This document shows, in pieces, positions 7,325 through 55,923 of a stretch of DNA of 64,000 nt. Position numbers and translations under genes: made by a program. Origin of the DNA: Deltaproteobacteria bacterium (GTDB lineage Bacteria > Myxococcota_A > Polyangia > Polyangiales > JADJMO01). The notes beneath the pieces are model-generated. The model was not told where the DNA came from. It saw only the letters and a program-made list of their open reading frames with translations, and searched no databases. How positions within the stretch are numbered: the stretch's first letter is position 1; each line of letters begins with the position of its first letter. Location of the stretch: the NCBI GenBank assembly GCA_025363655.1, contig JANYDK010000018.1:1-64000 (forward strand), written 5' to 3'.

Positions 7325-7587
7325 TTCGCCTCTTGCTTCGCGGTCGCTGTCGTCTTCTCGGCGCGCCCGAGCTTCTTCGCCTGCGCGGCGATGGTGAGCC
7401 CGAGCGCATAGTTGGAGAGCTCGCCGGCGACGCGCTTCTCCCGCGCGCCATCGGCCGCCGAGAGACGGACGATCCAATGGGCGGTCTCCTCGGCTTGCTC
7501 GAAGCTCGCGTGGGGGCCGAAGATCTTCAGCGCCTCGTCGACGGACTTCCCGTCGTAGAGCTCGCGATGGAAACGGAGCTCGATCAC
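7321..7587 (-). CDS. Small HxsD-like protein
   Basis: An 88-residue protein starting at GTG 7587, which overlaps the stop of the preceding HxsD-like gene (GTGA); its own stop overlaps the HxsB start (ATGA). The order ELYDGKSVDEAL ... HWIVRL ... GELSNYALGLTI resembles the core of HxsD proteins, which have an LLNDYxLRE-like helix. The C-terminal tail is Lys/Ala-rich. HxsD proteins are small partners of HxsB/HxsC with no established enzymatic activity; a leader-binding or scaffold role is an inference. It looks like a shortened paralogue of the gene at 7584-8111. Confidence 0.6.
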   Translation of the reverse strand: MIELRFHRELYDGKSVDEALKIFGPHASFEQAEETAHWIVRLSAADGAREKRVAGELSNYALGLTIAAQAKKLGRAEKTTATAKQEAK

Positions 7588-8111
7588 TTTCCCGCCTCGG
7601 GCTTGGTGACGCTGCTCGTCGCCGCCTCGTCGTTCGGCGTCGGCGCGGTTGCCTTCGGATCGCCCTTTTTCTTCGCGTATTTCTCTTCCCACGACATCGC
7701 GATGCCGAGCGGATCTTCGAATGCGTCGTCGGAGAAGTCGAAGGCCTCGAGCTCTTCGAGACTGGGCGCGCCGCGGGCACCGGAGAGGGCCTGCGCGGTC
7801 ACCGCCTCGATGGTGGCGCGGTTTTCGCGCGCGATTTGCGAACGCCACGCGCACGAGAGGAGCTCGTTGGAGAACTCGCCGACCAGCTCGCGCGCAGCGT
7901 CTCCGGCGAGCGTGCCCTTCTTCGCGCTCAGCGTGACGCGCGTCTGTCCACTCGCCGGCTTGTCGAGGAGCACGTAGCAACGATCGATGAAGACGTAGGC
8001 GGCGGCGTAGACGGCTTCGAGAGGATAGAGACCGTCGTCGACCTTGAGGTGGACGGCGCCATCTTGGTCATCGAAGGAGACGAGGTCGCTCGGCAGCGAT
8101 TCGAGGGGCAT
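7584..8111 (-). CDS. hxsD: HxsD-like His-Xaa-Ser system protein
   Basis: A 175-residue protein from ATG 8111. Its N-terminal half has the HxsD pattern: DGLYPLEAVYAAAYVFIDRC followed by a beta stretch and then EFSNELLSCAWRSQIAREN with the helix running into ATIEAVTAQALSG. This corresponds to the LLNDYxLRE helix and the following Ile/Ala-rich helix of the family. The last 55 residues are acidic then Lys/Ala/Thr-rich and probably flexible. No cysteine cluster or catalytic motif is seen. It is cotranscribed with HxsB through a second, shorter HxsD-like gene. The assignment is by eye and a profile search would settle it. Confidence 0.65.
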   Translation of the reverse strand: MPLESLPSDLVSFDDQDGAVHLKVDDGLYPLEAVYAAAYVFIDRCYVLLDKPASGQTRVTLSAKKGTLAGDAARELVGEFSNELLSCAWRSQIARENRATIEAVTAQALSGARGAPSLEELEAFDFSDDAFEDPLGIAMSWEEKYAKKKGDPKATAPTPNDEAATSSVTKPEAGK

Positions 8112-8139
8112 CGCCTTCCATCTTACCGTGCTCTGCCGC

Positions 8140-9066
8140 TCATCGCGACGGACGTAGCGGCACCAATTCGCCTTCGCCGTGCAATCGGAGGTAGTCGGCG
8201 CGCGGCCCGGCGCATCGCGGGTGCGCGGAGCAGGTGGTGCAAATGGCGTGGTGCGAACCCTCGAAAGGCGACGTTTCCAGGGGAAAAGCCCGCCCGGAAG
8301 GATCGACCACCTCGAGCCGGAGGTCACGGACGCTCTGCCACCGCCCGCGCAAGTCGCTCGGCAGGGTGCAGGGGGGAGTGTGCAAGGTGACGAGCTCGAC
8401 CCCCGCCTCGGTCGCCGCCGCCGCCGCCTCGCGAAGGTAGGTGTGCAGCGACGCGATGCGCGGGACCTCGGCCTCGACCGCGGGATCGACGACGTCGTGC
8501 GCCGAGAGGAGCCAGAGCCAGAAGACGGTGACGCCGCGCTTCGCGAAGTCGCGCACGGTCTCTCCGAGGTCGGGCGCCGTCGTGCGCGTGACGAGGACGT
8601 CGGCGGATACACGAAGTTTCGACGAGGCCTGGTTGCACGCTGCGAGCACGTCGAGCGCGCGAAGAAGGAGCGCGTGGGCGCCTTCGCTGCCGCTCAGCGC
8701 GTCGTGGAACTCGGGCCGATGTGATTTGACGTTGAGGCGGACGTCGGTCACCCCCGCGCTCGCCAGCGCCTCGACGTAACGCGGGTAGGCGAGCCGCAGC
8801 CCGTTGGTCTGGAGGAGCCGTCGCTCGAAGCCGAGGCGCTTGGCGGTCGCGATCACGGCGAGCAAATCGGCTCGCAAAGTCGGCTCGCCGCCGCCAACCC
8901 ATAGTTTGGATATATTTCTTCGACGCGCGTCTTCGAGGAGCGCGCGGACCGTCTTGCCGTCGAGCGAATCCTCGCCACCTTCACATGCGCGGCAGCCGAT
9001 GCAACGGAGGTTGCAGCGATAGTCGAGGGCGAGCTCGAGCCATTCGACGGGCGCGCTCGAGGTCAC
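8140..9066 (-). CDS. Radical SAM protein (MoaA/twitch-like) in HXS operon
   Basis: A 308-residue rSAM protein starting at GTG 9066, overlapping the upstream stop by GTGA. The cluster motif is CNLRCIGC (C18, C22, C25), with a fourth Cys at 28, and GGGEPT lies at 58-63. The C-terminal segment CTTCSAHPRCAGPRADYLRL ends in GEGELVPL. This matches the CxxCx5CxG...EL.P signature repeated through the cluster, which probably holds one auxiliary Fe-S cluster. It is not an obvious HxsC. Its place in the operon suggests that it acts on the same peptide as HxsB; the reaction is unknown. Confidence 0.8.
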   Translation of the reverse strand: MTSSAPVEWLELALDYRCNLRCIGCRACEGGEDSLDGKTVRALLEDARRRNISKLWVGGGEPTLRADLLAVIATAKRLGFERRLLQTNGLRLAYPRYVEALASAGVTDVRLNVKSHRPEFHDALSGSEGAHALLLRALDVLAACNQASSKLRVSADVLVTRTTAPDLGETVRDFAKRGVTVFWLWLLSAHDVVDPAVEAEVPRIASLHTYLREAAAAATEAGVELVTLHTPPCTLPSDLRGRWQSVRDLRLEVVDPSGRAFPLETSPFEGSHHAICTTCSAHPRCAGPRADYLRLHGEGELVPLRPSR

Positions 9067-10367
9067 GAACCGCCGTCTCGGTCTGCGCGAAAGTCGAGGA
9101 AGATGGGCGCGGGTTCTTCGGGCGTGCCGGACGGGCCGGAGAGCAGGCGTCTTGCGAAGGCTAGGTCGAGCGCGTGGACGAAGGTGCCGTTCGGTGCGCG
9201 TCGCGGCGTGGCCCGGAGGATCGCGCCCGCCGCGTCACGACCGACGAGGACGCGCGCGCCTTCGCGATCGACTGCCACCTCGTGCGTGAGACGTCGCCGA
9301 AGACGCGCGGCCGCGAGGGGCGCCTCGGCGTCGACGTGGGCGAGCACGGCGTTGGCATAGGAGAGCGCGGCCGGGCATCGATAGCCACAAGGCGTGAAGG
9401 TGACGAGCGCACTTCCACACTCGAAAAGAAGGTGATTGAGCTTCCACGAGGGCGAGGGAACGTAGGCGCCCCTGGCGACCAAATACGCCTCGGAGAGCGC
9501 TTCACTCGGAGCGAGGCTGGGCGAGAGGGCGACGCGCTCGACGTAGGCATCGACGCAACAGCGCGGATATCCGAGGGCGATGCCGAGCTCGTGGTACTCG
9601 GCGGCGCGCGCTTGCACGCTGACCTTGGGGGCGAACGTCTTCGCCTCGACGGCGCGCACGTGCTCGGCGATCGCCATGGTGCGCGCGACGTAGACGAGCC
9701 GCAGCTTGCGTTCGTGATCGCCGTCGTCGTCGATGAAGAGGCCATCGCCTGCCGCGGCGACGAGCCCGAAGCGCGCGTATCTGGCGCGGAGCATGGCCTC
9801 GCCCTCCGATTCTTCTCGCGAGGTGCTCAGCCGCATGACGGGCTTGATGCCGGCAAGCACGGCCTGCAGCTCGGTGTCGATGCGCGTGTCGTCGTCCGTC
9901 GAGAGCGAGACCCCGAGCTCGGCGGCGGCGGCCTCGGCGAGCGCGATTTCCCGGGCGATTTCTCCCGGCGCGCGCGCGGTGAGCCCGTCAGGCACGAGGT
10001 CGAGGAGGTAGCGTCCGAGCTTCGGCGCCGCGCGGGCGAGACCATGGATGCGGCCGGCGACGGGAGCGAGCTCTTCGGCGACGGGCAGGACGACATCGAC
10101 GGGGATTCCGATGGCGGCGCCGCGCGCGAGGGTTCGCAAGAGCTCGCGTGGGCTTCCGGGCAAGCCGAGCTGGTCGTGCACTTCGGCGTCGAAGCTCGCC
10201 ACGGTCGCGCGCAATCGCACGCGGGTGAGGGCGCGGAGGTCGCGGAGCGTGGCGATCGCGACGGCACCGTCGGTGACGATCACGACTTCCTCTGCCCCGT
10301 CCGCGAGAGCGTCGCGCGCCGCGGCCGCGGGATCGTCGGAGGCCCTCGTTTCCACGACGCTGCGCAC
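9063..10367 (-). CDS. DUF483-like protein with an rSAM-like N-terminal half lacking the cluster motif
   Basis: A 434-residue protein starting at GTG 10367, first gene of the HXS operon. Residues 150-260 precede a C-terminal domain with GYPRCC (C270, C271) and CGYRC (C327, C331), resembling DUF483. The same CC plus CxxxC pattern recurs at the C-terminus of the 1439-residue rSAM fusion. The N-terminal 150 residues have the alternating alpha/beta rhythm of the rSAM barrels nearby, including a segment like the conserved HD....GSxxxxxxxL part (DQLGLPGSPRELLRTL), but no CxxxCxxC. It may be a degenerate rSAM partner. The four Cys could bind metal; function unknown. Confidence 0.65.
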   Translation of the reverse strand: MRSVVETRASDDPAAAARDALADGAEEVVIVTDGAVAIATLRDLRALTRVRLRATVASFDAEVHDQLGLPGSPRELLRTLARGAAIGIPVDVVLPVAEELAPVAGRIHGLARAAPKLGRYLLDLVPDGLTARAPGEIAREIALAEAAAAELGVSLSTDDDTRIDTELQAVLAGIKPVMRLSTSREESEGEAMLRARYARFGLVAAAGDGLFIDDDGDHERKLRLVYVARTMAIAEHVRAVEAKTFAPKVSVQARAAEYHELGIALGYPRCCVDAYVERVALSPSLAPSEALSEAYLVARGAYVPSPSWKLNHLLFECGSALVTFTPCGYRCPAALSYANAVLAHVDAEAPLAAARLRRRLTHEVAVDREGARVLVGRDAAGAILRATPRRAPNGTFVHALDLAFARRLLSGPSGTPEEPAPIFLDFRADRDGGS

Positions 10368-10398
10368 GGCAGGGTCGAGCGTACTACACTCGTGGAGG

Positions 10399-11949
10399 AT
10401 GGAGCCGGACCGCCAGATCGAGATTCAGCTCGGTCACATGTGCGGCAATCGCTGCGTCTTCTGCGTCAGTGGTCAGCGCACCGAGATGCGCGAGGCGTTC
10501 CCCATCGCCGCCGATCCGGTGATCGAGAAGCTCCGCGAGGCGCGCTCGAGCGGGATTTCCAAGCTCACGCTGCTCGGTGGCGAGCCGACCATCCAGCCCG
10601 AGTTTTTTCGGGTGGTGCGCGCCGCCGTCGAGCTCGGGTTCGGAGAAATCGTCGTCTTCACCAACGGCGTGAAGACGGCGCGAGGCTCCTTCGTCGACGA
10701 GGTGTTGGCGACTGGCGGCAACTTCACGTGGCGCCTCTCGTTCCAAGGTGCCGACGCGCGCAGCCACGATCGGACGACCCGCAAGCTCGGCTCCTTCGCG
10801 CGGCTCGTCGAGTCCCTCGAGAACTTGCGCGCACGCGGCCAACGCATCACCGTCAACATGTGCGTCGTCCGCTCGAACTACGAGTCGGTCCCGGCGTTCC
10901 CGGCGCTCCTCGTGCGCTACGGCGTCAGCCAGCTCCACCTCGACATGATTCGCCCGCTCGACGCCGGTGAGCGAAGCGAAGACGAGATGCGCGCGATGAT
11001 GCCGCGCTATCGCGACTTGGTGCCTGCGCTCGAGCAGATGATCGCGGGTTTTCCCCCAGATTTCGACGTCAACGTCGGCAACTTGCCGTACTGCGTGGCG
11101 CCGTCGCTCTTGCCCTTCATCCATCACGACGGCAGCCCGACCTTGACCGTCGCCATCGACGGCGACGACTCGCTGAGCGAGCCCTGGGACAAGTACGAGG
11201 TGAAGCGTCGCGACAAGGTGAAGGTCGACGCTTGCCGCACCTGCCTCTTCGACGATCGTTGCAGTGGCGTCTTCGACACCTATCGGCGCTTCTACGGCAC
11301 TGAAGAGCTCGTGCCCATCGACCGCATCCGGCTGCCGCTCGTCGATTCCGAGCGGCGCATGTTCACGATGCACGCCGAGCCGCTCGTTCATGCGCTCACC
11401 GAGATGGGCGCGATCATGCAACTCGACTCGCACGCGCAGCGTGTCTTTGCCAGCTTCGGCGAGATTCGTCTCGGTCTCGCGAGACCTGGCGTCGGCGCGG
11501 CCGGCACCGATCAGTTCTCGCTCTTCCTCGCGTCCGCTCCAGCCATCGACGCAACGACCCTCGCGCTTCTCCGCCGCGTCTTCGCCAAGTTGGTCGAGGT
11601 CTCGGGCGCACGCGCTCTTCACGAGGTCGGCGACGACGCCGCCCATCACGGCCCGATGCGCGCGCAGGCCGGCCTCGACGGGCGCATCGGCGGCGCCCTC
11701 GCGCGTCTTCGTGCGTCGGCGCCGTATCGGGAATTGACCTGGAAAAAAGCGAGAATCGGCGATCGCGGCCGCGCGGCTGCGGTCGTGCTGGAGCACGAAC
11801 AAGGCACCGTCGTGACGCTCTCGTGCGCGGTCGAAGATGCGGACGAACCGATGCGGTGCGGCTACCGACTCGATCGTCAGCTCGCCACGCCGCCGCCCGG
11901 GCTCGTCGAGGGCGTGCGCGCCGCGATGTCGGCGCTCGCGGGACGATGA
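10399..11949 (+). CDS. Radical SAM protein with unrecognised C-terminal domain
   Basis: The start is ATG 10399, preceded by GGAGG, giving 516 residues; the frame is open further upstream, but that part lies over the divergent gene. The cluster motif is CGNRCVFC (C15, C19, C22) and LLGGEPT lies at 58-63. CRTCLFDDRCSGVFDTYRRF with GTEELVPID is the shared C-terminal twitch signature, at about 280-310. A further 190 residues, without cysteine motifs, look like an independent alpha/beta domain that I cannot name. The gene is divergent from the HXS operon across 31 bp and meets the HExxH gene tail to tail. Substrate unknown; peptide modification is inferred from context. Confidence 0.8.
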   Translation: MEPDRQIEIQLGHMCGNRCVFCVSGQRTEMREAFPIAADPVIEKLREARSSGISKLTLLGGEPTIQPEFFRVVRAAVELGFGEIVVFTNGVKTARGSFVDEVLATGGNFTWRLSFQGADARSHDRTTRKLGSFARLVESLENLRARGQRITVNMCVVRSNYESVPAFPALLVRYGVSQLHLDMIRPLDAGERSEDEMRAMMPRYRDLVPALEQMIAGFPPDFDVNVGNLPYCVAPSLLPFIHHDGSPTLTVAIDGDDSLSEPWDKYEVKRRDKVKVDACRTCLFDDRCSGVFDTYRRFYGTEELVPIDRIRLPLVDSERRMFTMHAEPLVHALTEMGAIMQLDSHAQRVFASFGEIRLGLARPGVGAAGTDQFSLFLASAPAIDATTLALLRRVFAKLVEVSGARALHEVGDDAAHHGPMRAQAGLDGRIGGALARLRASAPYRELTWKKARIGDRGRAAAVVLEHEQGTVVTLSCAVEDADEPMRCGYRLDRQLATPPPGLVEGVRAAMSALAGR

Positions 11950-11951
11950 GC

Positions 11952-13115
11952 TCACCTCGGAAGGTTTTGAAAGTGTGCGTCCCAGCGCAACAGCTCGTCG
12001 AGCACTCCTTGCCCAATCGGCGTCGCCTTCGCGTGCTCTCGCAGCACCGAGGTGCCCTCGTGGTTGCCCTCGACGATGTCGGCGAATCGTGAAGCGAAGC
12101 TCGGGTGGCGGCTGAGAGGGTCTCCTTCCGCGAGCATCGACTCGTAGAGGCGCGCCACCGGCACGAAGGCGTGCACCGCCAGGAGGACGCCGTGAAGCGG
12201 GCGCGGGTCAGGGCGCACCGGGCTCGGATAGAGCGGCGCGTAGGCGTTGTAGAGAACGTCGTCGCTCTCGAAGAGTGCGTTCAACTTGTTGTGCGAGAAC
12301 TCGTGGATGACCGCCTCGGTCATGGTCATCGGCTGCGGATGCAACGTCAGGTAGATGGTGCCGATCGCCTCGCGGTACGACGCCGACAGATGCGCCTCGG
12401 CGTCGAAGCCCACGGGGACGAACTGCTGGACGTAGAGATCGATCTCGCGACGAAGATCCGGAAGATGACGCTCGATGCGGTCGAGCGCGTCGCGCAGCGA
12501 GTCACACCATTCTGCAGGTGTTTTCTCGCCCAAATCGATGCGATTGCCCGACTTGCGCGGATGCGCCTCGACCATGGAGAGCGGGTTGTCGTCTTCGAGC
12601 GCGAGGACGATGTCGCCGGCGACGTCGTGAAAGGCCGCGCTCGGCTTCGGCATCGTCTCGGGAGAGATCAGCGTCGGACGTTCGAGCACGAAGCGACCCG
12701 CGAGGGAGACGATTCTGGCCGGTGGCGACGTCAATCGAAGCTCGCCCAATGGCGCGCCGAGAACCGTCAGCTCGACGGCGATCGTCGCCACCAGCTCGGC
12801 CACGAGCGCATCGGTCGGAGCGACTCGAGCGCACCGAAGCAGCACGCCGACGTTGACCCGGCGGAGCACGGCCGCGAGGGCAGAGGCGCGATCGGGCATC
12901 CTCGCGATCGCGCGTGTGAGCGTGGCGATGTCGCGCCTTGGACCCTCATCCGACACGGGCGAAACGGGCGCGCGCAGCACGAGCCGGAGATCGTCGAGGA
13001 GCCGGCTCGTCGCACGCGAAAGAACCGTCCGCGCCGTCGTCGAACCCGGTTCCGGAAGCGTCAAATCGAACGGCGGAGCGAGCGCTCTCTTCATCGACGT
13101 GGGCGATGCGCTCAC
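11952..13115 (-). CDS. HExxH-type (alpha-ketoglutarate) putative peptide beta-hydroxylase
   Basis: Starting from GTG 13115, which overlaps the upstream stop (GTGA), gives 387 residues; ATG 13094 gives 380. The C-terminal third carries IHEFSHNKLNAL (HEFSH, 264-268 in the ATG numbering) and, about 30 residues on, RPDPRPLHGVLLAVHAF with His301. This is the pattern of the mod_HExxH family found beside rSAM RiPP maturases. Family members fused to rSAM enzymes have been shown to be Fe/2-oxoglutarate enzymes that hydroxylate a beta-carbon of the peptide. Here the protein is free-standing but coupled to two rSAM genes. Target residue not deducible; His or Ser of the repeat peptide are candidates. Confidence 0.8.
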   Translation of the reverse strand: MSASPTSMKRALAPPFDLTLPEPGSTTARTVLSRATSRLLDDLRLVLRAPVSPVSDEGPRRDIATLTRAIARMPDRASALAAVLRRVNVGVLLRCARVAPTDALVAELVATIAVELTVLGAPLGELRLTSPPARIVSLAGRFVLERPTLISPETMPKPSAAFHDVAGDIVLALEDDNPLSMVEAHPRKSGNRIDLGEKTPAEWCDSLRDALDRIERHLPDLRREIDLYVQQFVPVGFDAEAHLSASYREAIGTIYLTLHPQPMTMTEAVIHEFSHNKLNALFESDDVLYNAYAPLYPSPVRPDPRPLHGVLLAVHAFVPVARLYESMLAEGDPLSRHPSFASRFADIVEGNHEGTSVLREHAKATPIGQGVLDELLRWDAHFQNLPR

Positions 13116-13996
13116 CACGGCGCGAGCTCGCCATCGCCGTGGAGCGTGACGTAGGCGCGAAGAATCTCGCCCGAGCAGGCGGGGACGAAGCGGCACGTGC
13201 CTGCCTGCGGACAACGCACGAGCGGCGTGCGCGCGCCGATGCTCGCCGGATGCGCCGACGGAACGAGCATGCGCATGCGAGCCGCCTTGGCCTCGGAGGC
13301 GTGCGTAAGCCGCGTGTGGAGCGCGCAAGGCCAGAGACCGGAGACGCGCATCAGCTGCTCGACGTCGAGCCCGGTGGCGATCATCGCGTCGGCCACCTCG
13401 TGCTGCGTCGGCGTCACGCGACGATAGGGATCGTCGGGTGTCTCTCTCTCGGGGAACGGCAAATCGGCTGCAAAACCGATGTTGCGCGCGCGCGTGAGGG
13501 CGACGATTGCGGGGAGCGAGGGGAGCACGCGCAGAGTGCAGACGGTGTGCACGGTGACCGCGCGAGGTGCTTCGAGACGGGCGAGGACGTCGAGCGCAGC
13601 GAGCACGCGATCGAAGGCGCCGGTGACGCCGACCACCGCGTCGTGGCTCGCTGCGTCGGCGCCATAGAGGGGCACATGGTAGCGACGGTAGGGCGGCGCC
13701 GCCGTGAGGAGCGCACGCACGAAGGTCTCGTCGGAGAGCCGCACGCTCGGTCCATGGAGCTCGAGATGCGTGAAGCCGACGTCACGCGCGGTCTCGAGCA
13801 GCGCGAGAATTCCCGCAAATGCCAGCGGATCGATGCCGGTGATGCGAAGCGCGTGGACGCCCTCTTTCGCCGCGCCACGCACCCGCTCTTGCAAGGGCTC
13901 GAGGGAATCGGGCCGGATGCGATCGGTCGCGATCGAACAGAACTCGCACCGCTGTCCGCAGGGGCCATTGACGTTGAGCTTGAGCTCGGACGGCAC
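13112..13996 (-). CDS. Radical SAM protein with variant GIDP loop
   Basis: A 294-residue rSAM protein starting at GTG 13996, whose G is also the last base of the upstream TAG. The cluster motif is CGQRCEFC (C13, C17, C20). The usual GGEP loop, which contacts the SAM amino group, is replaced by GIDP at 54-57, unlike the cluster's other members. The C-terminus has CRFVPACSGEILRAYVTLHG and ends GDGELAPW, the shared twitch-type signature. It lies between the triple-rSAM fusion and the HExxH protein in one coupled operon. The loop change may mean altered SAM use or loss of activity. Confidence 0.78.
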   Translation of the reverse strand: MPSELKLNVNGPCGQRCEFCSIATDRIRPDSLEPLQERVRGAAKEGVHALRITGIDPLAFAGILALLETARDVGFTHLELHGPSVRLSDETFVRALLTAAPPYRRYHVPLYGADAASHDAVVGVTGAFDRVLAALDVLARLEAPRAVTVHTVCTLRVLPSLPAIVALTRARNIGFAADLPFPERETPDDPYRRVTPTQHEVADAMIATGLDVEQLMRVSGLWPCALHTRLTHASEAKAARMRMLVPSAHPASIGARTPLVRCPQAGTCRFVPACSGEILRAYVTLHGDGELAPW

Positions 13997-16900
13997 TACT
14001 CGCGCCTCTCTTCCGGGAGCTCGGCGAGCATCGGCAGCCGGCGCACGAGACGATCGCCGGTGAAATCGAGCAGCCAGGGCGGCTCTTCGGAGAAGCGAAG
14101 CTCGGCGACGAGCTGCTCGTCACGATCGATCCGGAAACTGCGGCCGATTCGCGTGAGGCGGTTTCCCTTCTCGAGCTGTGAGATCGTCTCGACGTAGAAG
14201 GTGCGGAAGCTCGCGCGACCGAGCATGCGATCGTTCACGCCGAGGTTTCGGTGCGAGAGGACGCGATCGTAGTGCCACGCCGCATTCCCACCCGCGGCTG
14301 CGTTCGAGCTCGCGGGCCGCGCGTTCTCGAGAAGCGCGTACTGTCCGTCGGGCGCCAGCACCGCCACCGAGCGAAGCGCGTTCACGAGAGCCTTGGCGAA
14401 CGTCGGCCTGTCCCGCGTGATCACCTCGAGCGTGCGACGCGCCAACTCGGCGGTACGCGCGCAGGTCGGCGTGCACGGAAACTGCGAAAAAAGGCGAAGA
14501 TCGGCCGCGGCCCAGTTGAGCTCGGGGGGAAGGGCGCCGAGCTGCTCATCGGCGAGCCGGGAGACGAGCGCGCCATCGGTTTGTTCGGCACTCTCCGCGA
14601 AACGCTCGACGCAGCACGAGGGATACCCGAGGAGCTCACCCATGCGGAGGACGAGCGGCAGACGCTCGCGGAACGACGTCACCAGCCGCGGCTCGATCTC
14701 CATCGCCTCGTCGACCGGCGCCTGCTCGAGGCCGATGAAGGCGATCGCCCGCGACGATCGAGGATCGGCGAAGACGCGCGCGAAGAGCCCGTTTTCTCGG
14801 GCTCTCTTCGCAGCTTGCTCGGCGCTCTCGACGTCACCGCGCTCGGTCTTGATGACCTGACGAAGACCGGCGCGGAGCTGCAAGAGCTCGCGATCGGCGA
14901 CGCCGGGGTTCTCGTCGGCCCAGGTTACGGGAAGGCGCGCGAACGCGGCGTCGTCGGTGACCTTGGCGGCCCTCGCGGCATTGGCGGCGGGGTTCTTCGC
15001 GCGCTTCGGTTCGAAGGCCACGACTTCTCCGCCACGCACCGGCCGCAGCTCGTCGACGCCGTACATCGTCGCGTACGTCGAGCGGATGCCGTAGCAGCGC
15101 TTGTCGAGCTCGCACTCGCCGCAGGCCTCGGACTTGGTGAAGCCCTTCGCGCGCGCGAGCTCTTCCGACGGTAAATCGTGTGCGAAATGCTCCTGCCGGA
15201 GCGCACGCGGGAGGTAACACGCGGGCACGCCGCACTTGGAGTCGAAGCCGGTCCAACGCAGCCCGCGCTCGGTCGCGCGCGAGTATGCCGTCTCGAGGGC
15301 CCAGGCGACGTCGCGAAAGCGTGGAATCAACTTGGTGTCGCGGGGCACGTTGTCGGTCGAGGCGGCGACGAAGGAGAAATTCGCCACCACCTTCCCCGGA
15401 TGCCCGAGCTCCCGATCGATGAAGTCCGGCAGGAGCGCCAGCTCGTCGACGTTGTAGCCGCAGAGCACGAAATTGAGACAAACGGCGACGCCCTCGGCGA
15501 GGAGGTTCTGCACGCCGGCGATGGTCTTCACGAAGGTGCCGGGCGCCGCGGTGACCCGATCGGAGACCGCGGCGGTGACGCCATGGAGGCTGATGAACGC
15601 CTGATTGAGACCAGCCTCGACGAGCTGATGGGCGAACGCGCGGTCGGCCATCTTGATGGCGTTGGTCTGCAAATCGAGCTCACGGACGCCGAGCTCGCGC
15701 GCGAGGCGGATGTACTCGGGGAGGCGCGGGTTGAGGGTGGGCTCGCCGCCGGAGAGATCGAGCTCCGCACCGCTGGCCGCGGCGTCGCGGATCTCTCGCT
15801 CGATGATCTCGTGCTCGATCGCCGGCAGTTCGCGCGAGACGAAGCAGAAGTCACACGCCTGGTTGCAGTGGAAGTTGACGCGGACGATGCGCCGCTCGAC
15901 GACGCCCTCCTTCGACTCGAGGAAGAAGCTGCTCCGATACTCTTGCAACATGCGCGTGCGCTCACGGCTGAGCTGCACCACGCCTTCGAGCGAGTCGGTT
16001 GCGTGCAACGTGCGCGCGATCCCAGCCACTTCGGCAGCGATCGAGGCCATCGGTCCCGGGCAGACGTCGCGCGCCGCGCATCCTTCGCATTGGGCAATGC
16101 GTCGGTGTTTGCCGTGATCGCGTTCGACGAGCGCACGACCGACGCGCAAAACGCCCTTGATCGCACTCGGATTCTCGAACACGCAAGGCGGCAGCTCGCC
16201 ATCGACCGCGGCGCTGACCGCAGTGCCCGTCTTCTCGAACGCGCGCACGGCGGCCTCGAGCTCGCGCGCGGCATCGGCGACGGCGAGCGCTCGAAAGCCG
16301 GGTGGACCGACGGCGACATGACGTGCGACCACTGCCTTCGCGAGCCCCGACTCGACGATGCGGGCGAGCTCGCCGCGATTGTCCGGCAGCATCGCGACGG
16401 CCAGCTCGACGCCGACGCCCGCATCTTTCAGCGCGCGCAAGCCCGCCATCGTCTGCGCATGTCCTCCCGGGTCCCGCGTGATGGCGTCGGAAATGCCCGG
16501 ATTCAGGCTATTGAGAGCCACTCGTACGCGATCGAGCCCAGCCTCGACGAGCGACGGAACGTCGAGGTCTTTGGCGTTGGTCTCGAGCACGACCTCGCCG
16601 ACGCCGAGATCGTGCGCCAGCTTGATGAGCTCGGGGAGGTACCACTCGAGGCTCGGCTCGGCGCCGGTGAGGACGACGCTGCGGACGCCCTCGCTCGCCG
16701 CCGCACGCACCGCCTGGATGGCCCGGGCCGCCCGCGCGCGATCGCCGTGGCTCTCGTCTCCACGATGCACGCAGAAGGTGCACGTCTGGTTGCAGCGCTT
16801 GTTGAGCGTGATTTGCTGCGTCGACGGGCCTTTCTTGGCGACGTCGTTCGGCGCCGGCGCCATCCGCTGCGGACGCCCTCTTTTCCCGCGTGCGACGCCC

Positions 16901-18315
16901 GCTGCTTCGTCGAGCGCGTGCTCGAAGACCTCGAAGAGCGCGCGCTCGTCGGACCCGGCGGCGGCGTCGAGCAGCTTGCGGTGAACCTCACCGACCTTCG
17001 GATGCAGGTAGCGCCACGGGTGATCGGCCTCATACCCCCGCCTCGACGCGTCGCTCTCGTCGTCCCGAGCGAAGCGATCGAGCAGCAGACCATCGCGCTT
17101 GGCGAGCCAGTAGAGCGGAAGGTGCGGATAGAGGCGCAGCCGTGAGAGGAGCGCCTTGCCACGGAAGCGCGCGAAGCCGAGCCGTCGCATGACGTCGGCG
17201 TTGACGCGGAGATCTTCGAGCGTCGTCCACGGCGTGAAGAGGATGAAGCCGCCGCTCGGGGTGACGCGAAATCGGCCGACAAAACGCTCGGACCACTCGT
17301 TCATGAGCGCGACCGAGCGTTCGAGCTGCGCGGCGCTCATGCCTTTGTTGAAGCGGACGAGCTCGGCGTCGGCGAAGTTCTCGAAGCCGATGAGATAGAA
17401 GCCGAGCTTGGCGGGGAACCTGCCGGCGAGCGCTTCCTCGATGTCGGCGCGCATCTCCAAGAGATAGTCGGCGCGCGCGGAGAGCAAAATTTCGCGATCG
17501 CCGAGGTCGAGCGGTCGGAGCGCGTCGCCGAGCCTCGCGATGAAGCGAACTGCGTAGTCGTCCTTGATGGCGATTTCGCGGACGCTCGGACGTTGTTCGA
17601 GGAGCGCGCGCACTTGCCGGACGAGGAGCGCGATGGCGTCGCCCTCGCTCATCCGCTCGTAGCCCGACGCGTCGCAGAAGGTGCAACCGGCGGTCGACAC
17701 CTCGCTCGGCATCTCGACGCCATCGAAGACGCCGGTCTTGTTCGGCACCCCCCGATAGGCGCAGCCGGAGTTGCTGAGCACGGTGGCGCGCGCTTCGTTG
17801 GCTCGCGACTTCGAGAGTGTCTTGCGCTGCGCGTAGGCGAACTCGGCGTCGGCGAGCTGCGAGAGCACGGTCAATCGCCGGGGTGCGCGCGCGTGGTGAA
17901 AGACGCCGTCGATACGTGTGGCGACACCGGGGACATGGGTGAGAGGCAAACCGTCGGCGATGGCGCGGGCCACGGCTCGGGCCGCCTCGCGTGTCGGCTC
18001 GACCACCGCCGCCGAGAGCACACCGCGCTCGACCAAATCTTCGGTCGCCCAGCCGACGAGCGGGAGACCACGCAACGCCTCGACGACGTCGTCGGACCAG
18101 ACGCGTTGGAGGAACAGGAGATCGAAGCGCTCGACGTCGAGGGCAGCGCGTAGCTCGCGGAGCTGATCGGCCTCGTTCCGAGCTGCATCGAAGACGTACT
18201 CGACCGCGTCGGCGTCGTGTCCGTCGAGGCGGAGATCGGCGATCGCCGCTGCCTCGATTGCCTCGACGAAGTAGTGATCGGCCATCTTGTACGGATGGAG
18301 AAACCCGATACGCAT
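13996..18315 (-). CDS. Giant fusion: three radical SAM domains plus a C-terminal DUF483-like domain
   Basis: A 1439-residue polypeptide. Residues 1-170 form an alpha/beta domain resembling a B12-binding region. Domain 1 (about 175-480) has an atypical cluster site: C185 in GCAYR, then C211 and C214 in GCTFC, with Ser where the first Cys of CxxxCxxC belongs. Domain 2 has CNQTCTFC (C508, C512, C515) with TGAEPS (550-555) and a CEGCAARDVCPG twitch motif. Domain 3 has CNQACDFC (C817, C821, C824), SGGEPT (855-860) and CGECELDKRCYG ending GVDELRPV. Residues 1160-1439 carry GYPSCC (C1234, C1235) and CTPTC (C1281, C1285), as in the 9063-10367 protein. No frameshift is needed; the frame is continuous. 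Possibly an assembly line acting on a repetitive substrate. Confidence 0.85.
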   Translation of the reverse strand: MRIGFLHPYKMADHYFVEAIEAAAIADLRLDGHDADAVEYVFDAARNEADQLRELRAALDVERFDLLFLQRVWSDDVVEALRGLPLVGWATEDLVERGVLSAAVVEPTREAARAVARAIADGLPLTHVPGVATRIDGVFHHARAPRRLTVLSQLADAEFAYAQRKTLSKSRANEARATVLSNSGCAYRGVPNKTGVFDGVEMPSEVSTAGCTFCDASGYERMSEGDAIALLVRQVRALLEQRPSVREIAIKDDYAVRFIARLGDALRPLDLGDREILLSARADYLLEMRADIEEALAGRFPAKLGFYLIGFENFADAELVRFNKGMSAAQLERSVALMNEWSERFVGRFRVTPSGGFILFTPWTTLEDLRVNADVMRRLGFARFRGKALLSRLRLYPHLPLYWLAKRDGLLLDRFARDDESDASRRGYEADHPWRYLHPKVGEVHRKLLDAAAGSDERALFEVFEHALDEAAGVARGKRGRPQRMAPAPNDVAKKGPSTQQITLNKRCNQTCTFCVHRGDESHGDRARAARAIQAVRAAASEGVRSVVLTGAEPSLEWYLPELIKLAHDLGVGEVVLETNAKDLDVPSLVEAGLDRVRVALNSLNPGISDAITRDPGGHAQTMAGLRALKDAGVGVELAVAMLPDNRGELARIVESGLAKAVVARHVAVGPPGFRALAVADAARELEAAVRAFEKTGTAVSAAVDGELPPCVFENPSAIKGVLRVGRALVERDHGKHRRIAQCEGCAARDVCPGPMASIAAEVAGIARTLHATDSLEGVVQLSRERTRMLQEYRSSFFLESKEGVVERRIVRVNFHCNQACDFCFVSRELPAIEHEIIEREIRDAAASGAELDLSGGEPTLNPRLPEYIRLARELGVRELDLQTNAIKMADRAFAHQLVEAGLNQAFISLHGVTAAVSDRVTAAPGTFVKTIAGVQNLLAEGVAVCLNFVLCGYNVDELALLPDFIDRELGHPGKVVANFSFVAASTDNVPRDTKLIPRFRDVAWALETAYSRATERGLRWTGFDSKCGVPACYLPRALRQEHFAHDLPSEELARAKGFTKSEACGECELDKRCYGIRSTYATMYGVDELRPVRGGEVVAFEPKRAKNPAANAARAAKVTDDAAFARLPVTWADENPGVADRELLQLRAGLRQVIKTERGDVESAEQAAKRARENGLFARVFADPRSSRAIAFIGLEQAPVDEAMEIEPRLVTSFRERLPLVLRMGELLGYPSCCVERFAESAEQTDGALVSRLADEQLGALPPELNWAAADLRLFSQFPCTPTCARTAELARRTLEVITRDRPTFAKALVNALRSVAVLAPDGQYALLENARPASSNAAAGGNAAWHYDRVLSHRNLGVNDRMLGRASFRTFYVETISQLEKGNRLTRIGRSFRIDRDEQLVAELRFSEEPPWLLDFTGDRLVRRLPMLAELPEERRE

Positions 18316-18352: not shown

Positions 18353-20152
18353 ATGAAGGCTCTGATCAAGGTCGGCTACGGGTGCAACAACCACTGCACC
18401 TTCTGCCACACGCTCGATGTCCGTGACGTCGACGGGGCCTCGGCCGAGGTCGAGGCGAAGATCGACCGCGCTGCACAGCTCGGCCACACGATGATCGTCC
18501 TCTCGGGTGGCGAGGTGACGATGCGCCCCGAGCTCCTTCGTTGGGCCACCCGCTCGGCGGCGCGCGGGCTCGACTTCGGGCTCGTCACCAACGGCAGGGC
18601 GCTGGCGTACCCGGAGCTGGTCGACAAGCTCCTCGAGCGCCGCCTTCGCTACGTCTACCTCTCGCTCCACGGCGGCGACGCCAAGATGCACAACCTCCTC
18701 GTGCGCGCCGACGCCTTCGAGCAGACGTACGCCGCGGTGAAGAATCTGGCAGGAATCGGGCTCGATTTCACCGTCAACACGGTGGTCACGCGGCAGAACC
18801 TTTCGCACCTCCGTCCCATCGTCGACGCGCTCTTGCCGCACCCCGATGTCGTCCTCAAGTTCTCGATGGTCCAGCCCAAGGGCGGCGGCGACAAACATTT
18901 CGACCGTCTGATTCCGCCGGTCGCGCAGGTCGCGGAGAAGGTTCGAGACGCGATCGAATACGGCCTCGCAGCGTCGTCCGGCCAAGGCCGCTACGCGCAC
19001 GACGGCATTCCCTTCTGCCTCTTGCCCGGCCATGAAGCGCGCTACGACGATTTGAAGACACACCGCTTCGCGACCATGATCGAGATCGGCGAGCCCGATT
19101 TTTTCCCCGTCGACGACCGCGCGAAGGTGCAACCGTCGACCTGCGACGACTGCTCGATTCGCGGCGCCTGCCCCGGCCTCTACCGTGGGTACGCGGAGGT
19201 CCACGGCGTCGAAGAGCTCCGCGCGGTGCGTGGTCTCCCTCGCTCCAACTCCTTCAACTTCGTCTTCGAGAAGGTCGTGGGCACCACCGACGCCGGCTGC
19301 CCGGTGCTGGCGGACGGGACCACGCCTTGGGATCGCGGACGCCACGTCTTCGTCCGCAAGCAAGGTCGGCTCGCGCGCTATCGCACGTCGTCGCGTGACT
19401 TCACCGATCACGAGATCGAGACCACCAAACACGAGCTCGGACAGCTCTACGTCGATGTGTCCGACAAACCCGCTCCCGACGATTTTGCTCGTGATTTACG
19501 GCAACTCCGGCGCAGCGAGGCGTGCACGGGGTGCGTCGCCGAGGGCTCGTGTGCAGGCATGTTCGAGGTCGTGCGCGACGACGTCTTCACCCCCGACGAT
19601 GCCCACGTGCGATCGCTCCTCGCCGGCCTCGAGGGCAGCGTCCTCGATCTCGGTTGCGGCGAAGCGCCCTACGCCGACGTGCTCGGTCCGCGCATCGCCG
19701 CCGGACTCGTCCGCTACGTCGGCATCGAGCCCGATGCGGCGCGCGTCGAGGTCTTGCGCAGGCGTCTCCTCGGCGCCGAACTCCGCGTCGGAGCGGCAGA
19801 AGACGGGCTCCGCGACGACGACCTCTTCGATCACGTCCTCTTTCTCCGGAGCTGGAACCACCTCGGCAATCCCGATCACGCGCTCGACGTCGTCCTCGCC
19901 AAGCTCCGGCCGGGCGGCAGCGTCGTCGTCGTCGACAACGTCGCGTTTGGTCTCCTGCGTGCGAAAGAGCAAGCCGCGCGCGCCGAGAGCGGCCCCGCGT
20001 TCTTCGAGCACCATCGCAACGACGACGCCCGGCTCGCAGCAGCGCGCCTCGAAAAACGTGGCCTCGTGCTCGTCGAACGCCGCGACGTCGGCAAGACCAC
20101 GAGCAACCAATGGCTGCTCCACTACACGACGCCGTCGGTCACGTCGGCCTGA
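18353..20152 (+). CDS. Radical SAM enzyme fused to a class I methyltransferase
   Basis: A 599-residue protein from ATG 18353. The rSAM half has CNNHCTFC (C11, C15, C18) and SGGEV at 51-55, where Pro of GGEP is replaced by Val. CDDCSIRGACPGLYRGYAEV with GVEELRAVRG at about 262-300 is the shared twitch signature. A linker with a second Cys group (CTGCVAEGSCAG) follows. From about residue 420 there is a Rossmann methyltransferase domain with SAM motif I VLDLGCGEAPYADVLG. The fusion joins radical chemistry to conventional methyl transfer in one protein, suggesting successive steps on one substrate. Confidence 0.85.
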   Translation: MKALIKVGYGCNNHCTFCHTLDVRDVDGASAEVEAKIDRAAQLGHTMIVLSGGEVTMRPELLRWATRSAARGLDFGLVTNGRALAYPELVDKLLERRLRYVYLSLHGGDAKMHNLLVRADAFEQTYAAVKNLAGIGLDFTVNTVVTRQNLSHLRPIVDALLPHPDVVLKFSMVQPKGGGDKHFDRLIPPVAQVAEKVRDAIEYGLAASSGQGRYAHDGIPFCLLPGHEARYDDLKTHRFATMIEIGEPDFFPVDDRAKVQPSTCDDCSIRGACPGLYRGYAEVHGVEELRAVRGLPRSNSFNFVFEKVVGTTDAGCPVLADGTTPWDRGRHVFVRKQGRLARYRTSSRDFTDHEIETTKHELGQLYVDVSDKPAPDDFARDLRQLRRSEACTGCVAEGSCAGMFEVVRDDVFTPDDAHVRSLLAGLEGSVLDLGCGEAPYADVLGPRIAAGLVRYVGIEPDAARVEVLRRRLLGAELRVGAAEDGLRDDDLFDHVLFLRSWNHLGNPDHALDVVLAKLRPGGSVVVVDNVAFGLLRAKEQAARAESGPAFFEHHRNDDARLAAARLEKRGLVLVERRDVGKTTSNQWLLHYTTPSVTSA

Positions 20153-20155
20153 GCT

Positions 20156-20785
20156 TCAGCTGCGTCGAAAGACCAAGAGATGCCCGGGTAGCTTTCCCAA
20201 CTCGGGAGGTCCGGTGATCAACGTCTCGCGCGCGACGAGCTCGAGGAGACTCGACGCGTCGTCGACGATCTCGTCGGCGCTCGCTTGTGCCCGAAACAGG
20301 CGCGTTCCATAGGGCGGTCGCCACTCCGTCGTGTGTACCGCGTCGACCGCGAGCACGAAGCGCCCGCGTGGTCGCAACGACTCCGCAATCTGCCGGAGCA
20401 AGGCGCGGTTTTCACGTCGACGACCGGCGACGAAGGCGAAGACGTCGACCATCAGCACGCGATCGAACGCCCGCGGCGCGAGCCCGAGCCTCCACGGTGG
20501 GCGCCACCGCACCGTCATCCGCGTCTCGTTTCGCTCCCTGCGCGTCGCCCCGAGCCGCAGGAACGCGCGCGGGCTCGCCTCGGTCGCGAGCACGTGCCCG
20601 TGCGGGCCGAGGCGCTCGGCGATCTTGAAGGCGAAGTATCCGAGCCCGGCGCCGACGTCGGCCACGCTCATCGCCGGTTCGAGCGCCAGCTGGTCCCAAA
20701 TGCGCACCGTCCGCGGCAGCTCGTCCCGCATCGGATTCTCCGTCGCCGCCCAGAGAAACGACCATTTCCGCTGCCAAGCGAACAT
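20156..20785 (-). CDS. Class I SAM-dependent methyltransferase
   Basis: A 209-residue protein with SAM-binding motif I ADVGAGLGYFAFKIAE (about residues 42-57), an acidic end of strand 2 (ATEAS), MVDVFAF as motif II, and a core of the usual length. The N-terminal MFAWQRKWSF...NPMRDELPRTVRIWDQL segment resembles membrane-associated bacterial methyltransferases of small molecules. It is last in the leftward operon with the JmjC, UbiA and two rSAM genes, 4 bp after the previous stop. Substrate unknown. Confidence 0.75.
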   Translation of the reverse strand: MFAWQRKWSFLWAATENPMRDELPRTVRIWDQLALEPAMSVADVGAGLGYFAFKIAERLGPHGHVLATEASPRAFLRLGATRRERNETRMTVRWRPPWRLGLAPRAFDRVLMVDVFAFVAGRRRENRALLRQIAESLRPRGRFVLAVDAVHTTEWRPPYGTRLFRAQASADEIVDDASSLLELVARETLITGPPELGKLPGHLLVFRRS

Positions 20786-20789
20786 GGGC

Positions 20790-21926
20790 TCATCCTTCTA
20801 GAAACGCGTAGTCCCCGCCACGAGGATTCACGCGAATGCCTCGTCTCTCGAACAGCGCACGCAACTCTTCGAACGTTGCCCGTTCGTCGGATTCGCTCGG
20901 CATCGATCGCCCGAGCGCTCGAAACATCGGCAGAGCGAGCGGCTTCTCGAAGAGAGGTCCCATGCGTACGGCGTCGACGAGGCCGTCGAGCGCGGCGACG
21001 AGCTTGCGGGGCGTGAGCGGCAACATCGGTTGGATGACCGCGAAGGTGACGACGCCCGCAGCACGGGCCAATCGCAAGGTGTCCAGTCGCGCGGAGATCG
21101 GCTCGGTGTTCGGCTCGAAGGCGGTGCGCACCGCGTCGTCGTCGGTGGGGACGCTGACCCCGAGAAATGCGCGAGGAAACGAGGCGAGAAGCGGCACGTC
21201 TTCGATCACCAGCGAGCTGCGCGTGAGCACGATTGGCGAGAACTCGCTGCCCACGAGCGCGCCGAGCACACCTCGCGTGACGCGATAGCGGCGCTCGATC
21301 GGTTGGTAGGGATCGGTGACGATCGGGCTCATGCGCACCGTGCCGGGAGGGAGCACCTTCACCTCGCGGGCGACGACCTCGGCGAGGTTGACCTTGACGT
21401 CGACCCACTTGCCCCACGGCACCGACGCGCGACCATCGAGGGCGCGGCTGAAGTCGGCGCGACCCTGCGCGTAGCAGAACGCGCATCCGAGCATGCAGCC
21501 GACGTAAGGGTTCGCGTAGTAGGCGCCCTCGCGTTCGCGGACGAGGCCACGATCGACCTCGATTTCCCGTACTGCCGAGCGTGCGCTGCCGGCGTCGTCG
21601 AAGCGCAGCTCGGCCTCGTTGGCGCGGACGACACGGACGACGGCGTCGACGAGCTGACCAACGTCGCGCAACGGGCCGTCGCGACCGCTGCCGTCGTAAT
21701 AGACGTTGAAGAGCGCCGTGGTCGCGAAGCACGCACGCGCGGGGTCGGCGCGCTCGAGCTCGACCCGGATGCGCCCCTCCGGCCCGCCGAGCGTGAGCGT
21801 GATGCCTTGCTCGGTCTCGATTTCCTCGACGAGGAAGCCGCGTGGCAACGCTCCGGGCACTCGCAGGGGCGCGAGCCAATGGCGTATGCGCGCATACAAT
21901 CCGTCGTGTTCACGCCTGACGCTCAT
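20790..21926 (-). CDS. SplB-like radical SAM protein with extra N-terminal domain
   Basis: A 378-residue protein. The cluster motif sits unusually late, ANPYVGCMLGCAFCYA (C144, C148, C151). The NPYxGCxxxCxYC-type context is typical of the spore photoproduct lyase/COG1533 branch rather than of the SPASM maturases nearby. The remaining barrel has SPIVTDPYQPIER and IVLTRSS segments expected for that branch. The first 130 residues are a separate beta-rich domain with one Cys (66) that I do not recognise. Most bacterial relatives outside true SplB have unknown function. It is coupled to the rSAM-UbiA-JmjC genes, so DNA repair is unlikely to be its job here. Confidence 0.75.
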   Translation of the reverse strand: MSVRREHDGLYARIRHWLAPLRVPGALPRGFLVEEIETEQGITLTLGGPEGRIRVELERADPARACFATTALFNVYYDGSGRDGPLRDVGQLVDAVVRVVRANEAELRFDDAGSARSAVREIEVDRGLVREREGAYYANPYVGCMLGCAFCYAQGRADFSRALDGRASVPWGKWVDVKVNLAEVVAREVKVLPPGTVRMSPIVTDPYQPIERRYRVTRGVLGALVGSEFSPIVLTRSSLVIEDVPLLASFPRAFLGVSVPTDDDAVRTAFEPNTEPISARLDTLRLARAAGVVTFAVIQPMLPLTPRKLVAALDGLVDAVRMGPLFEKPLALPMFRALGRSMPSESDERATFEELRALFERRGIRVNPRGGDYAFLEG

Positions 21927-21932
21927 GGCGCG

Positions 21933-22940
21933 CTACCGATACGAGCGCGCGGCGTCGAGCACGCTGCGCAATGGATGACGGAAGAGGAGGTTGGCCTCGA
22001 GCATCGGCCCGACGCTGCACTGCGTGCACGGCGTCTCGCCGGAGAAGCGGACGCGCCAGTCGTCGCGAAGGAGGTTGATCGGCGCGGTTTTGCCCTTGGT
22101 ATAGGCGCACGGATAGGCATCGCCGAGCGGATCGACGAAGAGGAAGCCGCGGCCGGCGGCGCAGCGCGCGTCGGGATCGGGGTGCGCCGAGACGAAGAAG
22201 TCGCGCCAGTTGGCGAGGAACTCGAGGTACCCAGTGGTGCTGGCGATGCTCTCCCCGGCGCGCTTCTTTTTCGCCAGCTCGGCGAAGAAGCCGCGCATTC
22301 GTTCGTTGGTGAGCGAGCGCGAGAGACTCCCGCGCACGATCGTCGTGTCGACGCACTGCGGTTGGAAGTGCACGCGCACGTCGAGCCGGGTGGCGAGGTC
22401 GAGGAGCGCGTCGGCGCGATCGATGGTCGCCTCGTTGACGACGCAGATCGCGATCACCGTCTTGCCGCGCCCCCGAAGCGCGGAAATCGCCGCGTGGACG
22501 CCGTCGAGCGAATGGGCGCCGCGGTTTATTCGGTGCGCTTCGGCGTCGCCGTCGAGGCTGGTGAAGACGAGGTCGACGTCGTCGAAGACCGGTTCGTTCT
22601 GCCGGTAGAGCATCAAGTGCGAGTTGAGCGAGACGAAGAAGCCGCGCGCGCGGGCGAGCGCGACGATCGCCCCGAGATCTTTGCGCACCAGCGGCTCACC
22701 GCCGACCAGCCCGAGCCGCACCACGCCGAGCGAGGCCAGCCGATCGAAGAGCCGCGCGATGTCGTCGAGGTCGAGGTGGGTCGGATCGAGGTGGGGGAAG
22801 TTGCAGTAGCTGCAGCGGAGGTTGCAACGATTGGTCACGGCGAACGACGCAGAAAATGGCCGTGGCGGCCCCTCGCGCGCGTATTCGACGAGGCTCGCGC
22901 CGAACGCGAGAGCGAGTCGGGCGCGGCTAGCGATGTCCAT
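21933..22940 (-). CDS. Radical SAM protein (PqqE/MoaA type) next to UbiA
   Basis: A 335-residue protein with CNLRCSYC (C39, C43, C46) and GGEPL at 80-84. The C-terminal part has CAAGRGFLFVDPLGDAYPCAY and a later TPCTQC, a shortened SPASM/twitch pattern of four Cys that differs from the signature shared by the cluster's other rSAM proteins. Its start overlaps the end of the UbiA gene by 14 bp, so the two are translated together. Such rSAM-UbiA pairs suggest modification of a lipid or quinone-like substrate, though a peptide cannot be excluded. Confidence 0.8.
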   Translation of the reverse strand: MDIASRARLALAFGASLVEYAREGPPRPFSASFAVTNRCNLRCSYCNFPHLDPTHLDLDDIARLFDRLASLGVVRLGLVGGEPLVRKDLGAIVALARARGFFVSLNSHLMLYRQNEPVFDDVDLVFTSLDGDAEAHRINRGAHSLDGVHAAISALRGRGKTVIAICVVNEATIDRADALLDLATRLDVRVHFQPQCVDTTIVRGSLSRSLTNERMRGFFAELAKKKRAGESIASTTGYLEFLANWRDFFVSAHPDPDARCAAGRGFLFVDPLGDAYPCAYTKGKTAPINLLRDDWRVRFSGETPCTQCSVGPMLEANLLFRHPLRSVLDAARSYR

Positions 22941-33989: not shown

Positions 33990-34014
33990 CCTGGAAATGT
34001 CCTAGACTTTGCCG

Positions 34015-44785: not shown

Positions 44786-44791
44786 CGCGTT

Positions 44792-44797
44792 TCCTCC
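44792..44797 (-). promoter_or_regulatory. Strong ribosome binding site of the HGS-repeat gene
   Basis: GGAGGA lies 6 nt upstream of ATG 44785 and decides the start over the in-frame GTG at 44803. It is one of the clearest Shine-Dalgarno sites in the window, as expected for a highly expressed precursor. Confidence 0.8.
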
Positions 44798-44823
44798 AGA
44801 CACTTGGTGCTGTCAGCCTGCTC

Positions 44824-46358: not shown

Positions 46359-46520
46359 ACGAGACAAGGCCGACTCGGTCGTCGTGGACATGCCCAGCGC
46401 TGGCGGCGATGATGCGCGTGCGTTCTCGCCGTGTCGAACGCGTTGAAACATCGGCTGGGCCTGCGCGACCCATGGGTGCAGCGCTTGCCGTCGTCCGAGT
46501 CAGAGAAAGGCTCCCCATCG

Positions 46521-55907: not shown

Positions 55908-55923
55908 GCTGCGCGTACCCTCG

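Follow-up and report, generated by a model that had tools for sequence, protein, structure and literature searches.

The window analysed here, the first 64,000 nucleotides of contig JANYDK010000018.1 from a Deltaproteobacteria bacterium of the order Polyangiales (assembly GCA_025363655.1), encodes a protein that joins three radical S-adenosylmethionine (SAM) units and a DUF483-like tail in one chain. The triple protein is a single open reading frame (ORF) of 1439 amino acids on the minus strand (13996-18315) that begins with ATG. The window is a type 4 His-Xaa-Ser (HXS) peptide-modification cluster in which HxsA4, HxsB, HxsC4, and HxsD all score over their NCBIfam cut-offs. Judged from the sequences, there is about an even chance that the triple protein would be a multi-site maturase of the HXS4 pathway, acting on the precursor peptide HxsA4 or on an intermediate of it.

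Three radical-SAM units and a tail in one chain

An earlier note on this DNA, made from the sequence alone, had described three radical-SAM units (here D1, D2, and D3) and a DUF483-like tail (D4) in one continuous 4.3-kb frame. The ORF has exactly the stated limits, and the Pfam search and AlphaFold2 (AF2) modelling confirmed the observation. The third-position GC of the gene is high from end to end, and there is no frame break. Cys residues lie at 185/211/214 in D1, 508/512/515 in D2, 817/821/824 in D3, and 1234/1235/1281/1285 in D4, which bears out the cluster sites that the note had placed near 211, 508, and 817 and its C-terminal CC/CxxxC. D2 and D3 each carry an additional, auxiliary set (711/743/746/752 and 1033/1065/1068/1074, respectively). 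The Pfam Radical_SAM family (PF04055) matched two stretches, units D2 and D3 (E 2.5e-37), with 70.7 and 58.8 bits against a cut-off of 29.5 and CxxxCxxC motifs at 508 and 817. Structure prediction recovered all three barrels, that of D1 by AF2 together with fold comparison and those of D2 and D3 as two confident barrels by AF2.

D1 is overlooked by the family models. No Pfam family matched it at E ≤ 1, it has neither a PF04055 match nor a CxxxCxxC motif, and the best NCBIfam match (E 0.0028) was far under its cut-off. The AF2 model of D1, built from 22 aligned rows (predicted local distance difference test score, pLDDT, 85.6; predicted template modelling score, pTM, 0.84), consists of an N-terminal Rossmann domain ahead of a radical-SAM barrel. 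In a Foldseek search with this model, all seven Protein Data Bank (PDB) matches at E ≤ 0.001 were cobalamin-dependent radical-SAM chains such as OxsB, TsrM, and CysS, with a lowest E of 2.1e-12. VIA-align superposed D1 (approximately residues 1-480) on OxsB (Z 21.2, 4.2 Å, 404 aligned), CysS (Z 20.0, 5.3 Å, 403 aligned), MgmA (Z 19.1, 4.1 Å, 350 aligned), AprD4 (Z 19.0, 4.3 Å, 391 aligned), and TsrM (Z 17.2, 4.1 Å, 386 aligned). On these matches D1 is, by its model, not a broken barrel but a radical-SAM module of the cobalamin type whose Cys motif is expanded. The Rossmann domain, in the position seen in OxsB, marks the cobalamin type, and the modelled barrel together with three conserved Cys marks the radical-SAM fold. 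D1 aligns with OxsB, TsrM, CysS, and MgmA end to end, through the Rossmann domain and the barrel, but differs from them in its low identity (~12-16%), its C-x25-C-x2-C in place of CxxxCxxC, and its lack of a Pfam match.

The expanded motif is shared by relatives. D1 relatives from other genomes have GC[AP][YF] ... GCxFC, and the three Cys are conserved in 20 of the 22 frames examined (genomes and loci in the comparison bear G and L numbers). The two misses are a partial frame at L055 that ends short of the motif and the ortholog in G420. For the first domain, the earlier note had allowed either the use of C185 or a cluster site of only two Cys. The former stands and the latter is rejected, since C185 is conserved with C211 and C214 among the relatives.

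D2 and D3, in turn, are, on sequence grounds, an old tandem pair. They are 35% identical over 154 residues. Among 26 frames related to D2-D3, both CxxxCxxC motifs are present in 23, the remaining three being interrupted by contig ends, and the C ... CxxC-x5-C set occurs twice in 25. In a tree of radical-SAM units, D2 grouped with the D2s and D3 with the D3s of the genes in G177, G353, and G403, with Shimodaira-Hasegawa-like approximate likelihood ratio test (SH-aLRT) values of 94 and 93, under the 95 mark. The same tree gave no support for a single origin of all cluster genes (SH-aLRT 80, with one non-cluster row inside); it was built quickly, is weakly supported at many forks, has long branches, and took in 11 non-cluster rows from 20 loci. 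AF2 modelling of D2-D3-D4 (25 rows) gave an overall pLDDT of 76.9 and a pTM of 0.49. The fold closest to the D2 barrel is SuiB, a maturase of ribosomally synthesized and post-translationally modified peptides (RiPPs; Z 16.0, 3.6 Å, 260 aligned), tied with viperin and SkfB. In their CxxxCxxC barrel followed by a second C ... CxxC-x5-C set, D2 and D3 are like the twitch/SPASM-type maturases HxsC/HxsC4, SuiB, SkfB, and PqqE; unlike them, they stand two in tandem within one chain. D3 is not HxsC4 itself, as it scored 139.3 bits with NF038332 against a cut-off of 500, and the HxsC4 of the cluster is the gene at 29486.

D4 resembles the Pfam family DUF483 (PF04467) in its GYPxCC core, and related tails in other clusters exceed the family cut-off. 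D4 itself scored 18.7-23.0 bits against a cut-off of 25. Across the window and the loci compared, 34 distinct stretches carry GYPxCC and, after it, CxxxC. DUF483 matches at E ≤ 0.1 were present in all seven genomes searched and passed the cut-off in four; those of the window genome, G177, G353, G372, and G085 fall in regions with HXS or radical-SAM genes. A PDB sequence search with D4 returned nothing at E ≤ 10, and the fold list of the joint D2-D3-D4 model barely probes D4.

Joining of the units in relatives

Matches to the triple protein were found in 77 of 377 genomes of the phylum at E ≤ 1e-30 and in 39 of 183 genomes of the order at E ≤ 1e-60, the window's own genome being counted in both. 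The units are joined in several ways. D1-D2-D3 form one frame in G314, G286, G085, G249, and G377, and D2-D3-D4 form one frame in G376 and G419. D1 continues into D2 in G419 and, in a degenerate form, in G420. In G419, the D1-into-D2 frame is on one contig (63% identity) and the D2-D3-D4 frame on another (57%), and the two contig ends overlap by 107 bp at 96%. A D1-D4 fusion lies near a separate D2-D3 gene in G177, G353, G372, Minicystis rosea, and one Archangium-named metagenome-assembled genome (MAG). The order is D4-D2-D3 in G401, and in G403, which belongs to the window's family, the matches of D1, D2, D3, and D4 lie in adjoining, partly overlapping frames. The earlier note had asked whether homologues carry the domains as separate neighbouring genes. 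In G403 the matches are in adjoining frames, in the genomes with a D1-D4 gene D1 is separate from D2-D3, and in five genomes D1-D2-D3 share one frame. Its statement that multi-radical-SAM chains are rare fails in this group, as tandem pairs related to D2-D3 are common across Myxococcota.

Could an artefact of assembly or annotation have fused separate genes? The earlier note had named an assembly error as grounds for giving up its reading, and it is true that every independent four-unit copy found belongs to a draft genome whose contig breaks off within D2 or shortly after it. However, the D1-D2 join and the D2-D3-D4 join each occur in another genome, D1-D2-D3 is continuous in five genomes, and the coding signal runs on without a frame break. 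Misassembly is unlikely because relatives show both joins, and an artefact of either kind is highly improbable.

Two other observations come from the relatives. The G420 ortholog, in which the D1 Cys are gone and the D2 motif reads SHQRCVYC, constitutes a natural inactivation series. A different triple radical-SAM frame, made of a relative of the window's 10384 gene, a D2-like unit, and a D3-like unit, occurs in a Byssovorax MAG and Minicystis rosea (L060 8657-11920 and L061 3917-6877).

The HXS4 cluster and its precursor peptide

The triple gene is one of 14 radical-SAM genes within 37 kb. Among 54 PF04055 matches genome-wide, 16 lie between window positions 6665 and 44021 in 14 genes, where 0.22 would be expected. 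G177 is a complete genome; of its 55 PF04055 matches, 19 (17 over the cut-off) lie at 414164-459511, in and around a contiguous HxsC4-HxsA4-HxsB-HxsD block. The triple gene belongs to a row of overlapping genes. Its stop codon shares bases with the GTG start of the radical-SAM gene that follows (TAGTG), and the TGA stop of that gene shares bases in turn with the GTG start of the HExxH hydroxylase gene (GTGA). Scans for promoters and terminators found nothing exceeding shuffled sequences.

HxsA4 is the likely, though unproven, substrate of the triple protein, as suggested by sequence. Its gene has a GGAGG upstream of the ATG, and the encoded peptide ends in HCS and a perfect repeat of 12 HGS units closed by a Trp. 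All 30 HxsA4 frames from other genomes have a repeat followed by a terminal Trp (HGSW in 26, HGQW in four), and HCS opens the repeat in 29 of the 30. The 12 HGS units of the window's HxsA4 use six DNA spellings, with both TCN and AGY serine codons, and the repeat is therefore kept by selection on the peptide and not by recent copying. Of 50 phylum genomes that match the triple protein (drawn from the 77, the window's own included), 45 have an HxsA4 over the cut-off, versus seven of 50 without a match (Fisher p 4.6e-15). The earlier note had proposed that the protein acts on a repetitive substrate. This part of its reading is plausible because the HXS cluster holds an (HGS)12 precursor in the same window and the overlapping gene row holds an HExxH hydroxylase. 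A Verrucomicrobia MAG (L107 6333-6773) also encodes an HxsA4-like peptide with an HGSW repeat, in which the unit varies (HTS, HSS).

A tryptophan halogenase is encoded within the cluster (32433-33989), and the C-terminus of HxsA4 is a Trp. None of 12 other genomes searched has a halogenase near its HXS cluster; in two of them a halogenase match (E ≤ 1e-20) lies megabases away from it. Halogenation of the HxsA4 C-terminal Trp was rejected as a general step. With a halogenase linked to the cluster in one of 13 genomes, it could only be a local addition, because no other searched genome has one near the cluster.

Other genes were also noted. The double radical-SAM chain (34009-36324) may offer a better way into the pathway than the triple protein does. 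A UbiA-type protein, a Cupin_8/JmjC-type protein, and a 557-aa protein without a Pfam match are encoded among the radical-SAM genes (22927-26212). Beyond the right end of the cluster lie a type VI secretion/phage-baseplate spike protein (46431-48839) and a 1403-aa kinase-AAA protein (55699-59910).

Table 1. Units of the triple protein and genes of the HXS4 cluster, with positions in the window and the evidence for each.
Feature	Position	Strand	Evidence
Triple radical-SAM + DUF483-like protein, 1439 aa	13996..18315	-	ORF, domain search, structure prediction, relatives
D1, residues 1-480: predicted cobalamin-type Rossmann domain + radical-SAM barrel	16876..18315	-	AF2, Foldseek, VIA
D1 cluster motif C185-x25-C211-x2-C214	17674..17763	-	Cys positions, conservation
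D2, residues 496-790: CNQTCTFC (508-515), GAE replacing GGE, auxiliary Cys 711/743/746/752	15946..16830	-	Pfam, motifs, model
D3, residues 801-1100: CNQACDFC (817-824), GGE, auxiliary Cys 1033/1065/1068/1074; most conserved unit	15016..15915	-	Pfam, motifs, model
D4 tail, residues 1196-1439: DUF483-like, GYPSCC ... CTPTC	13999..14730	-	Pfam sub-threshold match, motif
HxsB radical-SAM maturase	5831..7453 (start as searched)	-	TIGR03978, 570.9 bits, cut-off 370
HxsD	7584..8135 (limits as searched)	-	TIGR03976, 59.6 bits, cut-off 50
Radical-SAM gene	8140..9066	-	Pfam
DUF483-like protein; N-terminal stretch weakly radical-SAM-barrel-like, without Cys motif	9063..10367	-	Domain search
Radical-SAM gene	10384..11949	+	Pfam
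aKG-HExxH-type peptide beta-hydroxylase	11952..13115	-	TIGR04267, 91.5 bits, cut-off 40; overlaps 13112..13996 gene
Radical-SAM gene overlapping the triple gene's stop codon	13112..13996	-	Pfam
Radical-SAM + methyltransferase gene, divergent to the triple gene	18356..20152	+	Pfam
Methyltransferase	20156..20785	-	Pfam
PA0069/Rv2578c-like radical-SAM gene	20790..21926	-	Domain search
Radical-SAM gene	21933..22940	-	Pfam
B12-binding + radical-SAM gene (N-terminal start uncertain)	26747..28900	-	Domain search
HxsC4	29486..30517	-	NF038332, 567.4 bits, cut-off 500
Radical-SAM gene, second half without CxxxCxxC; conserved core member	30521..32353	-	Domain search, relatives
Double protein: B12-type radical-SAM + second radical-SAM; conserved core member	34009..36324	+	~1000 bits in relatives
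Radical-SAM gene	42463..43545	+	Pfam
Radical-SAM gene, conserved core member	43545..44483	+	Pfam, relatives
HxsA4 precursor, 92 aa, ends HCS(HGS)12W	44507..44785	-	NF038313, 96.4 bits (cut-off 55) on longer stretch 44507-44803

Proposed role and what it would mean

How would the triple protein act on HxsA4? D3, whose CxxxCxxC and GGE are both intact, would be the unit most surely catalytic. It would generate a 5'-deoxyadenosyl radical and functionalize the HGS repeat, either by desaturation or by forming a C-C, C-N, or C-O link. D1 would probably add methyl groups or carry out other cobalamin-assisted chemistry. D2 would be an older partner barrel of D3 whose reactivity is doubtful, and D4 may provide a metal site that positions the peptide or relays electrons. 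Because D1 to D4 belong to one polypeptide and the substrate repeats one unit throughout, the same residue would probably be treated in each HGS unit; processive action along the repeat is a hypothesis. Beta-hydroxylation by the HExxH enzyme of the overlapping row would come after or alongside this step. HExxH enzymes can hydroxylate several residues in a row within one peptide (PMC12636437). A more specific version of the proposal is a radical-SAM assembly line, in which fused cobalamin-type and auxiliary-cluster sites would walk a perfect (HGS)n-W peptide and modify each unit in turn. The line would belong to a radical-SAM pathway of 14 genes that is spread widely among Myxococcota, and D1 would be a cobalamin radical-SAM enzyme with its cluster held by C-x25-C-x2-C. 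This version is tentative.

Several points weigh against a multi-site maturase acting on HxsA4. The tie between HxsA4 and the triple protein is limited to co-location and co-occurrence, and the two genome sets behind the co-occurrence were not matched for size. The two genes cannot share a transcript because they are 26 kb apart in the window. The idea that D1, D2-D3, and D4 always occur together was rejected, since just six of 21 rows have both D1 and D4 no more than 7 kb from D2-D3 (counting rows flanked by 5 kb or more to either side, with at least one place entered twice). The model confidence of D4 is modest, and D4 was modelled only together with D2-D3. Two further points concern the catalytic sites. 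D3 retains GGE, and the window's D2 has GAE in place of the usual GGE and a long branch in the tree. In the G420 ortholog (L155 16003-17544; split across two contigs, start codon uncertain), D1 has no motif Cys and the first Cys of the D2 motif is replaced by Ser; therefore, three active sites are not required everywhere.

These last two points favour a protein that is mostly scaffold, in which only D3, with or without D1, reacts, and D2, D4, and in some species D1 hold the peptide. D3 is also the best conserved unit between the window and G419 (72%, versus 63% for D1, 46-60% for D2, and 48% for D4), and in the D1-D2-D3 frames of G314, G286, G085, and G249, D2 retains CxxxCxxC but not GGE. However, the window and G419 retain every radical-SAM Cys of D1, D2, and D3, and the auxiliary four-Cys set of D2 is kept in all but one of the 26 frames. 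A scaffold of this kind is possible but rather doubtful.

It is less probable still, though worth weighing, that the substrate is not HxsA4 and that the triple protein acts on another peptide or a small cofactor-like product of the same cluster. Nothing ties the protein directly to HxsA4, the closest folds of D1 include the small-molecule enzymes OxsB and AprD4, and UbiA, Cupin_8/JmjC, and halogenase genes also lie in the cluster. The co-occurrence with HxsA4, the overlapping gene row shared with a peptide hydroxylase, and the RiPP maturase as closest fold of D2 argue against another substrate and for a maturase of HxsA4.

The window cluster is like the described HXS systems (HxsA/B/C/D, A4/C4 type) in that all four models score over curated cut-offs. 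It is unlike them in having at least 10 additional radical-SAM genes, an HExxH hydroxylase, DUF483-like proteins, and both double and triple fusions. The HXS4 kind counts as known because NCBIfam names HxsA4 and HxsC4; it is already named, yet uncharacterized, and the multi-radical-SAM fusion is a variant of it. The founding HXS paper is reportedly that of Haft and Basu. In the literature searched, consisting mostly of sources outside subscription journals, no HXS product was described, and neither the triple and double fusions, nor a radical-SAM set of this size, nor the D1 motif was found. FO synthase has two radical-SAM domains in one enzyme (PMC11917521). The triple protein is like that enzyme, by description only, in having more than one radical-SAM active site. 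It is unlike FbiC, the fused form of FO synthase, in having three units versus two and in that the substrate of FbiC is a small molecule.

The cluster offers a concrete HXS product to pursue: the H-C-S-(H-G-S)n-W core hardly varies, the enzymes form a conserved set, and one chain brings three radical-SAM units together. D1 adds a unit, predicted from its model to be radical-SAM, that escapes the family models and has an unusual cluster motif. The system could show whether radical enzymes work in assembly-line fashion on a repetitive peptide.

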